From assembly GCF_032854445.1 (NCBI RefSeq), contig NC_088295.1:55595249-55659248 (forward strand): a stretch of 64,000 nt of DNA. The letters are read 5' to 3'. The translations under genes and the position numbers were made by a program. This DNA comes from Liolophura sinensis. Lineage: Eukaryota > Mollusca > Polyplacophora > Chitonida > Chitonidae. Below the pieces are notes generated by a model. It was given only the letters and a program-made list of their open reading frames with translations, made no database searches and was not told where the DNA came from. Shown one piece after another: positions 47,501 through 53,500 of the stretch. The stretch's first letter is position 1. Each line of letters begins with the position of its first letter.

Positions 47501-50500
47501 CTTAAATGTTGTAAAATTCAGAGTGAGTCACTGAAAATTAAGAAAAAAAAAATCAAGTATTTAACTGGATTTAAAGTTTAATCTGATAAATAATGTTAAC
47601 ATTAACACAGCTAATTGAGTAATTTTGTTCTATCTCTTTTCCCAGCTGGTGGTAACTTGGTTTATTCTGCTCCTACGAGTGCTGGTAAAACAATTGTGGC
47701 GGAGCTGCTGATTTTGAAGAGAGTTTTGGAGACAAAGAAGAAAGCTATTGTTATTCTACCATTTGTTTCTGTGTCCAGAGAGAAAATGTTCTATCTTCAG
47801 GTACTGGCAAAGAAATATTTCCAAATTCATGCATGTAACTGTTTTGGAGGCAAATTTCCAAAAGAATTAAAGCAAATGTATATGTAATATTTTTTGTAGC
47901 ATATTTACCTGTAACCATTACTTTGAAAACTGTAAAATTTTGTGAATTTACTTATATGTTGCTCTTTTCTTCCTAACCTAACCTCAGGGGTCAAGTGTTA
48001 ACATAAGACAAATCTTGTTTTTGTTTTGGCCTCAGAAGTATTAGAGATACATTTTTCTCTACCCATTTTCTTTTTGGATTGTTCGAAGGATTTATATTGT
48101 CATCTTTTTTCTGTGGCAGTATCTGTTCCAAGACGCAGGAATCAAAGTCGGTGGGTTTATGGGAAGTCATAGCCCTACTGGTGGCCTTCATGGTGTTGAT
48201 ATAGCTGTCTGTACTATAGAGAAAGCCAACAGTCTGGTGAACAGACTTCTCCAGGAAAATGCTCTTGATATTCTAGGTTAGAACATGGATAAGATTTCGT
48301 TAGAGGCTGATTCATTGTAGTTGAAAGAGCTGAAATTTGCTCAAAGGTTATGCTTGGTGTGACAAAATGCTTTTTTGCATATTATCAACTGCTTTTGTCC
48401 AATTCTCCTGATATGCAGCCAAGTATTTACAAGGGAGATAATTTGAGCCCCATCCAAGGGTAACAACACTTTGATCCATAACAATTTACTGGTACACGAA
48501 AGCTGTATTGATGTATTTTTTAACTGCAAGTTGGGCAGGCTGCTCTTTTATTTAGTTAGTTAAGATTTTTTTATTAGTTTAGATTATAATGGAGGTATAG
48601 TTATCTGAATTATACAGGAACAAACTTTTTACATCAATATTAAAGCCTGCTGTTTTCTTTTATTTATTTCAGTGTTTGATACTTGTTGATAAAAGAAACT
48701 TTTGAAGGTTTGATGATTATTGAGTTTATATTGCTGACTGGTATTTCCTGGTTTACGTTGTTAACTTGTATTTTCTGCTCAGGAATTGTGGTTGTGGATG
48801 AATTACACATGATCGGAGATTCTCATAGAGGCTACCTTCTGGAACTGCTGCTCACCAAAATCAACTTTGTCTCCAAGAAATTTACTGACAGCGGGACCAA
48901 ACCACAGACGTAAAGCTATATTCAGATATTTTCATGTGAAGTGTGTTTTCTATGTTTTTAAAATGTCACTTTCATTTCAAATTTTTTTTCAAAATTAAAG
49001 GGTACACTTTTTCAATTAGGTGGTTGAGAGATATATCAAACCTAAATACATGTCCTTTTAACAGTTAAGATTCATGTGGAGATGTCAAAATACAGCCAGT
49101 AAATTTATCACAATCCACAAGAGCCAATTTCACAAACTGTATAAATTAAACTTCCATCGATTCTTTTGTAAATAGTGTCTTAAAGGAATACTGTCAAGAA
49201 AATAAATTATTTGTGCCTCCAAACTGTTTAAAAAGATCATATTGATAGTATTTGGGCCCCTGTAACCACAAACGGCCTGCTTGTAGTCGTTCTGATGCAA
49301 CCGGCGACGAATACCGCTCGGCTGAATATGCATATTGTGAATTTCAAAGCGAGGCTGCTGAGCCCGTGACGTCACGGTAAGAAGACTCTGGCTCCATGCG
49401 TGCAGAAGTTCTATAATAGAAGGCTATAAACACGCGACCAAAAGGCATTTATTTCGACCCAAATTTGCTGTTGTTTGAGAAATTTTTGAAAGGTAGTTAT
49501 GCCTGTGATCTGTGCAGCTTACGGATGCAACAGTCAGCTTGTCAAGGGAGGTGGAATTTCTTTCGTCAGTCATTTCTATTATCCTTGGCACTTCCTGACA
49601 GCAAAGGCATTCTACGTTAGTTGGCATAATATCACAGTTCTCACAATCACACCTGAAAATAAACAGATTTGATATTCAGAGAAGATCATACATATGTTGG
49701 TACAGATTCCTTGATACGATGAGAAGCGGATTCAAAGCTTCAGCTGTCGGCGTAACATATTTGCTGTTGTACAAATATGCACCTCGATAAATTTTTACTT
49801 ACATATTCGGACATTTAGACCAAGTTTACGTGAATCTCAAAAGACTGATTTAATCGTAATATTTGACATGTGGGTTAACACAGACCTCTGAATCAAGGCA
49901 TTACCTCAAAGCCGAGGATATTAGGGCACTAACCTGCTTGAGGCACCGGCAGGGACAAAGTGATAAATAACACAGGAAGGGAAAGAAAAGTGACAAACAC
50001 CGGGCCATAATTTGAGAGCTACGGCTTATAGGCCTAGTAACCAGAAATTACAGTATGCTTATCGTTTTCTGTTTGTGAACTTCAACAAAACCTAGTTTTG
50101 CACTTAAAATGCTGTGATTTAAAGGTCTGTATTAACTCCCGTGATATTTTGAAAATGCCAGGATACCTGCGACCAATTTATTTGATAGGCTGTTGAAGCC
50201 GTACTCAAGAATATTTCATTTCTGCCACGGCGGCCAGCATAAGGCCATATAGTGCCAGCAAATCGGAAAATAGCAAGGAATTAACTGAGATAAAATGTAA
50301 TCACCAGGTCAAATTGTCGGTCCGAAAATCTTCTGGTTTCTGACAGCTGTCGACGTGGTCAGACTCGCTGTCGGATGAGTGAGGGGAACGGTTTACTGGG
50401 CTGAATTCATGGGTTCCACGCGCTGAATCCGTTCGTATAGGATCATACATGTACGGGTCTATAGGTGGTATACACATTGGAATTTCTAGTATGTCCGTTT

Positions 50501-53500
50501 CACAGTCTGACATTATTTTATTTTGGTATTTTCGCGCCTAAGATCGTATGTGGTATGTGAAACAGTGTTGTTCAGTATGGGCCCGTTCTTACGGTGACGT
50601 CACTGGGATCACGTGACGGGCACCTCATTAACTCCACTCTGGCTGACGGCTCCCTAGCGTGAGAGCCGACTATCGCCGTGGGAAGCGAGTCCAGGGGTAA
50701 ACAAACATCCAGGTTCGTTATAATGAGGGATTATGAGGTAATTATTAAATAAATACCGATGATCATAAGACCTTGACAGTATTCCTTTAAGTTTATGTAG
50801 ACATTCACTGACGTGATTAATGCAGAAAGTTATGAAGAATTGACATGCTAAATTTTGTGATAATATTGCCAGATAGTTAAAATGTTTCTCATAGCTGGGA
50901 TGTAGATGAAAGAAATGGATGATTTATGTTATTTTTCAGTATTTTTAAGAGATAAAAATTAAACTATTTTTGATTAATTTCTTCATTTCATGTTGAATCC
51001 ACACAGCCTTCAACATATACATTTGTGTTATTTGTTTTTTGTTTTGTTTTCAGTTCCAACAGCTCTGCCAATGACCCTCAGAAAAATGCTGTTCAGATTA
51101 TAGGGATGAGTGCCACACTGCCTAACCTAGACATGCTGGCAAACTGGCTGAAGGCAGACCTTTACAAGACTGATTTTAGGCCCGTCCCACTTACAGAATG
51201 TGTGAAGATAGGCTCCACGCTATACGACTCACAACTGAAGAAGCTACATGACATCAACCCTACCCTCAAGTTTAGGGGTGATGATGAAAACATTATACCC
51301 CTGTGTTTAGAAACAGTCCTGGATAAATGCTCTGTTCTGATTTTCTGTCCATCCAAAAACTGGTGTGAGAAATTGGCCGAATCTATTGCTCGGGAGTTCT
51401 ATGAGCTTTTGAGAAATCCACAGCTTTTACAACAACAAGGTAGGTACAAAAACAGCTTTTACAACAACAAGGTAGGTACAAAAACAGGTATGTTCAGAAT
51501 CCAAGTGCAGTTAATATGGTATACACAATGTATATCTTAGCAGAGATCAAAATATGTATGGGAAACACCTTATGTAGGTAATTTCTGTTAAATTCCCTAA
51601 GTATATTTCACCTGCAGCATTGTGTAAAATGAAAGTAAATCATATTTTACCCCGTTGAATGAAAGGTCATGATATTGTGGTCATACCCATCTATTTGTCT
51701 AATCATTATTGCAATAATAAAATTGATATATAATCATAACTTTGGATAAACACTTATGATATCTCAGGAATATTGGAATGTTTATTGAAATGTGAAATCA
51801 TGTCCTTATTTGTTAAGTTGTTCTTCTTTTCAGGGCTTTCTGTTATACATTAACTCTGAACAATGTGGTAATAAACACATAACATTTGAGCTATCAGAAT
51901 ACAATGGCATTCTGAATCTAATTTGCTTCTTGTTTGCTCCCATGTTTGCTTGTCAGTGTGACAACGATATAAATGTATTGATGACGAACGCCACAGAACG
52001 ACTCTGATACTGTAACATGTGATCTGTTCTCGCATACACCATTGTTACTGATTGCATGTGTGTACTTTCAGGAACAGGTTTTGTGAAGGCCTCTTCCCTA
52101 GTTCAGCTCCCCATAGACAGACAAGCTGTACAGGATGTAGTGGAACAACTCAGAAGGACCCCTATAGGGCTGGACCCTGTCCTAGGACGGCTTGTGGCTC
52201 ATGGAGTCGGATATCATCATGCGGGTACTGCATATACTAACCTCCTCCTCCCCCACATATTAAATTATCCTGTTTCAGGTTTAGCAACTTTGTTACTAAT
52301 TGGTTTTTAAAGGGAGATAAATTTGATGGATATGGGATCAAGGGAGACAACTTTGTGATTTTCACTTTTACTGTGCTGCCCAGCCCATGCTTGCCTTAGA
52401 TAGTGATTTTAATAGTAAGACTTATGGTCATTGAAGGTCATGAATCATTTGTCATATGACAAGGAAGTAAATTGTAAAGCAACAAATGATCACAAAAGTC
52501 TTCCAGTCCTAATTTAGTGCCCTTACAAAAGGTTTCACGCCAGCCCTGATGGCTCAGTTGATAGAGCGTCCGCTTCTGAGGCAATAGATGCAGGGTCAAT
52601 CCTCGGTCAGGTGACACCTAACACCTTAAAAGAGGAAGTTGTAACTTCCTCACTTGGTGTTCAGCTTTATGGGGAAGTGCAACGACTGGTTGACCCGTAT
52701 AATGGCTTGGATTGGGTGGCTTACTTGCCTTTGGTAAGTCATCTCAGTGAAGCGACACCAGATAAAAGAGTGGTGGAAATCCACCCGGCATCAAGGAGGC
52801 ACATTACATGCACTCTGAGGACTCCTTCGTCGACATATGACTGAAAAATTGTTAAGTATGACTTTAATTCCCATGCACTCACTCACTCAAAAGGTTTCAC
52901 ACATTCATCATTTCTATCCTTTTAAATCTGACTAAATGTCAAAGTACATGAAAAGAATGATTTCATTTCAAAAAATACTTAATGTTTCACATTGCCTTAA
53001 GTTAAAGACTGGCATCTATTCATTGGTCACTTCTGCTTTAAGGAATTTGATCTTTGTGAGTCATTCTGTATTTCTCTGATAGATGAGACTCAGTGCAAAT
53101 ATGTGGCAAAAGTGTTACCTTGATGACTGAGAATAGAAAAAGGCAGAAAAAATGAAAGAGAAAATTTGTGTGAAATAAAACAATGCTTTCATAATCTAAT
53201 CTATAAGAGTCTGTGATCTAATTACAGGTTTAACCTTTGATGAGAGGGATATTGTAGAAGGTGGATTCCGCCAGGGGGTACTGAAGGTGTTAGTGGCCAC
53301 CTCCACGCTATCCTCAGGAGTCAATCTGCCCGCTAGGAGGGTCATTATCCGCACACCCACATTCCATGGGGGCATCATTGATACTCTGAGCTATAAACAG
53401 ATGGTGGGAAGAGCCGGCAGGAAAGGGGTTGATATTGCAGGTAATTGTTGTCTGATATAGCAGATAAAGGATGAGCTCATAGCTCAGGGATTCAGGGACC

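Follow-up and report, generated by a model that had tools for sequence, protein, structure and literature searches.

A deletion derivative of a Kolobok transposon in Liolophura sinensis and the convergent transposase and KolX genes of its long form

A 64,000-nucleotide stretch of the genome of the chiton Liolophura sinensis (contig NC_088295.1, positions 55,595,249 to 55,659,248 of the forward strand), called the window below, was found to contain a DNA transposon copy of 1,603 bp at window positions 49184-50786, whose 15-bp ends are perfect and which is flanked by TTAA duplications. This element is almost certainly a young, non-autonomous, internally deleted cut-and-paste transposon of the Kolobok type (probably Kol0 lineage), whose long form carries two convergent genes, one for a THAP transposase, probably of DDE type, and one for KolX, a small zinc protein that resembles the tail of P2X7. 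The two-gene pairing is already in print (Kojima and Bao 2022, PMC9587614), and the present case is a well-supported further example in a new family. What is added here is a count of convergent pairs, a selection test and a class of deletion copies that retain only the THAP frame.

The window copy and its full-length relative

The terminal inverted repeats (TIRs) of the window copy, AGGAATACTGTCAAG at 49184-49198 (plus strand) and CTTGACAGTATTCCT at 50772-50786 (minus strand), are complementary at all 15 positions and are flanked by TTAA at 49180-49183 and 50787-50790, as the initial annotation of the window had described. The termini read AG..CT, that is, RR/YY. Approximately 180 bp inward of each end lies a subterminal inverted repeat (49363-49383, plus strand; 50586-50606, minus strand), which had been put at 18 bp and was measured here at 21 nt and 90%. 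Its centre is the palindrome GTGACGTCAC, at 49366-49375 and 50594-50603; the only two occurrences of this 10-mer in the 64-kb window are inside the element.

Two broken reading frames lie between these repeats, on opposite strands. On the plus strand, a THAP-type start of 22 residues (49499-49564) is truncated by an internal deletion, and the domain that it begins is complete in the full-length copy, L003. On the minus strand, KolX exon 1 (50513-50305, MSDCETD..DNLTW) has its GT donor within the W codon of the WCxCxxC motif. Joined across the intron to a remnant of exon 2 (49562-49652, 5' part only), it gives ..TW|CDCENC..ECLCC with the splice in that W codon, which bears out the spliced cysteine frame that had been proposed. 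The THAP frame as it stands matched no Pfam family (E up to 1), and the spliced KolX frame scored 14.1 bits on PF20478, under the cut-off of 23.5. Since neither frame reaches a cut-off, the identification depends on other copies; for the P2X7 label this is the full-length L003. The proposal of a Kolobok-like transposon with both genes holds for the family. The window copy itself is a broken derivative that retains no more than the initial 22 residues of the THAP domain and five of the seven zinc cysteines.

The host genome (609 Mb) was searched with the two ends, and with single proteins in the protein searches; the counts of end matches are lower bounds. At least 28 matches were found for the left 318 bp and at least 32 for the right 318 bp. 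Eight left-end and five right-end matches, window included, were identical over the whole query. Matches to both ends throughout the genome show that the element is not due to chance. When the end matches were paired, they gave 15 two-ended copies classed as close, with an identity of 94% or more at each end and each in a different location, and nine older ones. TTAA was present on both sides in all 14 close copies of which both ends were fetched, and the flanks differed between copies; the fifteenth, an 18.5-kb copy on C11, was fetched at its left end only. Among eight older copies examined, which leave aside a ninth at C2:11.16 Mb, TTAA was found on both sides in four and the other four had one altered or decayed side. 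Two of the latter, L004 and L005, have their flanks in common and stem from the duplication of a single insertion.

The end search that the initial annotation had suggested recovered a full-length copy encoding both genes: copies with the shared ends do carry both frames, and the P2X7-like frame lies between transposon ends. This copy, L003, is 7,043 bp long and has both TIRs, TTAA on both sides, exons of a THAP (probably DDE) transposase and a convergent three-exon KolX gene, and the two genes start near opposite ends of the long form. The THAP exon scored 52.7 bits on PF05485. After it, on the same strand, come exons with GGDARCDSPG, ITDRH..DVWH and LHYNENS. A check for a DDD/E transposase with a C/DxxH motif between the second D and the E came upon GGDARCDSP, ITDRH, DVWH and LHYNENS, in which the putative catalytic residues would be those of related sequences. 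The KolX exons, at 475-684, 1343-1573 and 2046-2201, have splice signals that restore WCxCxxC and encode 198 amino acids, which scored 47.9 bits on PF20478, the P2X7 intracellular domain (cut-off 23.5). Exon 3 alone passes that cut-off in L003, L016 and L028. A PDB search with the L003 protein gave P2X7 (residues 471-594) as top match with E 0.0055, followed by weaker, unrelated matches. All seven zinc cysteines are kept.

Relative to L003, from which it derives by internal deletion, the window copy has position 382 joined to 5811 with a 3-bp overlap (49562-49564 in the window; element positions 380-382), and about 5.4 kb are missing. An identical junction was found in L014. The other derivatives are joined at other positions, and their overlap was 1 bp (L013), 4 bp (L011, L012 and L020), 5 bp (L002) or 9 bp (L018), which makes a range of 1-9 bp across seven fetched copies. 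This junction pattern suggests that the internal deletions would arise by incomplete repair of the gap left after excision. The transposase of long copies would mobilise the deletion copies in trans via the TIRs, perhaps with the help of the subterminal GTGACGTCAC repeats.

Pairing of the two genes, selection and other explanations

A second family was found at C4:0.37 Mb. Its 9,389-bp element is flanked by TTAA on both sides and has 14-bp TIRs with one mismatch. Its KolX protein scored 61.9 bits on PF20478, retains all seven zinc cysteines and has two introns at the positions and phases seen in L003. The transposase (THAP, 39.5 bits) is again convergent to KolX. Compared with L003, KolX is 34% identical over the whole protein and the transposase exons are 39-48% identical. 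The convergent pair was also seen at further diverged loci on C8, C10, C11 and C13. On C13 (2.56-2.63 Mb) six such pairs follow one another and evidently form the tandem array of a single diverged Kolobok family.

KolX exon 3 was found within 6 kb of 13 of the 14 transposase exon-4 loci, convergent in every case, with a chance expectation of 0.0005 per point; the copies counted for pairing are not all independent. Of 20 transposase exon-3 matches, several of them from shared loci, 15 had KolX exon 3 within 6 kb, all convergent; one had it at 14 kb and four had none.

Selection on the genes was estimated from the ratio of nonsynonymous to synonymous substitution rates (dN/dS) between L003 and the older copies, after removal of codons that contained gaps or in-frame stops and of comparisons shorter than 150 bases. 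The median was 0.18 for KolX exon 2 (six comparisons, 0.11-0.26), 0.37 for KolX exon 1 (eight comparisons, 0.18-0.41) and 0.25 for the THAP exon (four comparisons, 0.20-0.37). Out-of-frame controls on the same alignments had medians of 0.69-1.49. The in-frame values of the KolX exons lie clearly below the intron baseline given below, and these exons are under purifying selection comparable to that on the DNA-binding (THAP) exon of the transposase. Exon 2 of the older copies bears frame damage. This comparable constraint indicates that KolX is a maintained transposon gene. KolX would act as a helper protein, for example a structural or regulatory one stabilised by zinc, and not as a passenger.

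Several results weigh against the preferred reading of the element as a whole. Among the copies examined, only L003 has both ends and both genes with no large insertion or truncation. In the C11 copy that spans 18.5 kb both genes are present, but it carries an insertion and its THAP is interrupted by a stop; the copy at C4:10.26 Mb lacks the first 1.2 kb; and those at C8:52.68 Mb and C4:3.65 Mb are one-ended, with matches confined to the right third of the element in the stretch fetched and to the left 1.4 kb, respectively. The L003 transposase is known as separate exons and not as an assembled full protein, and its DDE exons matched no Pfam model at E up to 1. Of the residues that bind guanine nucleotide in rat P2X7 according to Rump et al. 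(PMC7016195), namely R546, H547, R574, R578 and K583, the L003 protein keeps R546 and R578 only and lacks H547, R574 and K583; the second family's KolX keeps R546 only. In the selection test, the intron 1 control gave 0.60-0.72, so that the neutral baseline is not exactly 1, and the six exon-2 comparisons are not independent, given the shared flanks of L004 and L005. As for pairing, the transposase locus at C9:2.235 Mb is without KolX. A transposase exon lay within 6 kb of 13 of the 24 KolX exon-3 matches; the other 11 had none that close, and those at C9:6.34, C9:3.52 and C12:7.33 Mb had none within 20 kb.

These 11 unpaired matches would be expected if KolX were a host gene that the element captured once and now carries as a mere passenger. 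We consider this improbable, because the convergent pair and its intron positions recur in the second family at 34-48% protein identity and at the loci on C8, C10, C11 and C13, and because dN/dS for KolX exon 2 is as low as that for THAP. The unpaired loci themselves also argue against a passenger. Among them are a piece of the window's family with the right end, namely its copy on C8, and four loci of the second family, including L023 with both TIRs and TTAA. Another sits 14 kb from a transposase exon, one at C1:88.98 Mb has, at a distance of about 2 kb, a right end that is a diverged form of that of the window's family, and the remaining four are isolated relics or ambiguous. Stops were found in three of the six that lie outside the window's and the second family. 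Use of TTAA is shared with piggyBac-type transposons, and the duplications alone would fit one; such an assignment is nevertheless very unlikely, as the AG..CT ends follow the 5'-RR..YY-3' rule given for Kolobok termini (PMC9587614), both THAP and a DxxH (DVWH) motif are present in the transposase, and KolX keeps 7/7 cysteines here, unlike the piggyBac proteins described in that paper. Finally, the failure of both window frames to reach a Pfam cut-off is what chance matches in a miniature inverted-repeat transposable element would produce. L003 refutes this and leaves it a negligible probability: both frames are complete there, well over the cut-offs, with splice signals that restore the cysteine motif. 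A Kolobok element with a maintained KolX gene is therefore preferred.

Deletion copies and subterminal repeats

A 1.9-kb class makes up 7 of the 15 close copies (L011, L012, L020 and L039-L042, on C9, C1, C1, C6, C2, C6 and C13). These share one junction, 643/5764, aligned to 645 in two of them. The THAP frame is retained in all seven and stops just past a glutamine run at the junction, giving 109-111 amino acids; one of these THAP-only frames scored 51.1 bits on THAP. Small deleted P elements of Drosophila often encode repressors, such as the 207-amino-acid KP protein (PMC7776569), and by this analogy the 1.9-kb class, the most successful kind of deletion copy here, may be a KP-like suppressor. 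The P element and KP have in common with the present family a THAP transposase, internal inverted repeats and deleted copies able to encode THAP-bearing repressors; they differ in having 8-bp duplications and no KolX, and KP is longer than the frame seen here.

The subterminal repeats of L003 lie 185 and approximately 192 bp from its ends. In the second family, GTGACGTAGAA faces inward 187 bp from one end and approximately 207 bp from the other, in DNA that is not alignable between the families. The subterminal repeat could be a site for the THAP-only protein. A promoter site of the CREB/ATF type (TGACGTCA) would be just as possible, as each copy is upstream of one of the two genes. A more far-reaching idea, which we put forward tentatively and regard as rather unlikely, is that the family regulates itself: the THAP-only protein would compete with the transposase for the subterminal GTGACGTCAC, and KolX would be an essential, zinc-stabilised partner of the transposase. 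If true, self-regulation would be a general Kol0 design, given that the second family has GTGACGT repeats whose distances from the ends match.

In the second family's element (L025 and L029), the GTGACGT repeats face each other at positions 187 and 9182, at end distances near those of the window's family. Four diverged C-type Kolobok loci (L031, L032, L024 and L033) have one or two exact GTGACGTCAC each, which do not simply form an end-to-end inverted pair.

A role of KolX as a guanine-nucleotide partner of the transposase was also considered, P transposase being known to use GTP (PMC7776569). This was left as a weak candidate, as most of the residues that form the GDP site in rat P2X7 are missing.

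Known systems and further observations

According to Kojima and Bao (2022, PMC9587614), Kol0-lineage Kolobok elements encode, besides the transposase, a second protein, KolX, which has the P2X7 ballast fold, resembles residues 476-595 of human P2X7 and has seven cysteines. They argue that P2X7 arose when a P2X4-like gene fused with KolX, and that zebrafish Nanor is a domesticated KolX. The family of the window's element shares with the Kol0 type (Kolobok-1_XT) the use of TTAA, the RR/YY ends, a THAP transposase, probably likewise of DDE type, and a KolX with the ballast domain and seven zinc cysteines, and is a new one. The orientation of the genes, selection on KolX and THAP-only deletion derivatives are not described in the main-text parts of that paper covered here. 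A literature search on KolX and Kolobok returned this paper only, and no other relevant paper was among the matches listed when Kolobok was paired with P2X7 and related terms. The suggestion in the initial annotation that some invertebrate P2X7-like genes are transposon genes is borne out by our results and had already been published in 2022.

Rump et al. (PMC7016195) described the P2X7 ballast or ZCD domain across animals. KolX has in common with it the cysteine pattern WCxCxxC, CC, CITxH, PSC and the PF20478 match, and here it is without the channel part. The stem 'transpos' is absent from the main text of that paper. In the text of its Figure 6, the linkage of two markers to ZCD genes, seen from sponges to molluscs, is reported as ancestral synteny. 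The markers might be transposon genes and not host markers.

Our data independently confirm that P2X7-tail (KolX) genes live within Kolobok transposons. P2X7 is a drug target in inflammation and its tail has been argued to be of KolX origin, so the role of KolX in the transposon would bear on the role of the tail. Invertebrate genes annotated as 'P2X7-like' merit a check for TTAA-flanked ends.

The P2X channel domain (PF00864) had seven exon matches in the genome, all at C10:7.52-7.53 Mb. None of them is beside a KolX locus, and no KolX exon-3 match was listed within 10 Mb of that position. With 35.5 bits, the single exon that scores highest on PF20478 in the genome is at C10:25.90 Mb (L021, 4466-4666) and was checked as a possible transposon-free gene. 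The 9.5 kb fetched around it showed no cysteine pattern like that of exon 2 on the strand of the match, and no transposase exon was seen. It is most likely a relic; the alternative is a host gene of other structure. KolX exon 2 of the second family has eight matches on C16 (23159-434364), all on one strand and with one TGA each, apparently an amplified dead copy.

Other sequences lie in or beside Kolobok copies. Transposase frames are inserted within L001 (2505-3579) and L004 (1974-2933), and we take these to be Tc1/mariner-like. Adjoining the element in the window, an open frame at 50974-51540, for which no Pfam match was found, has by eye the look of a helicase-type exon, presumably POLQ-like; the element would sit in its intron.

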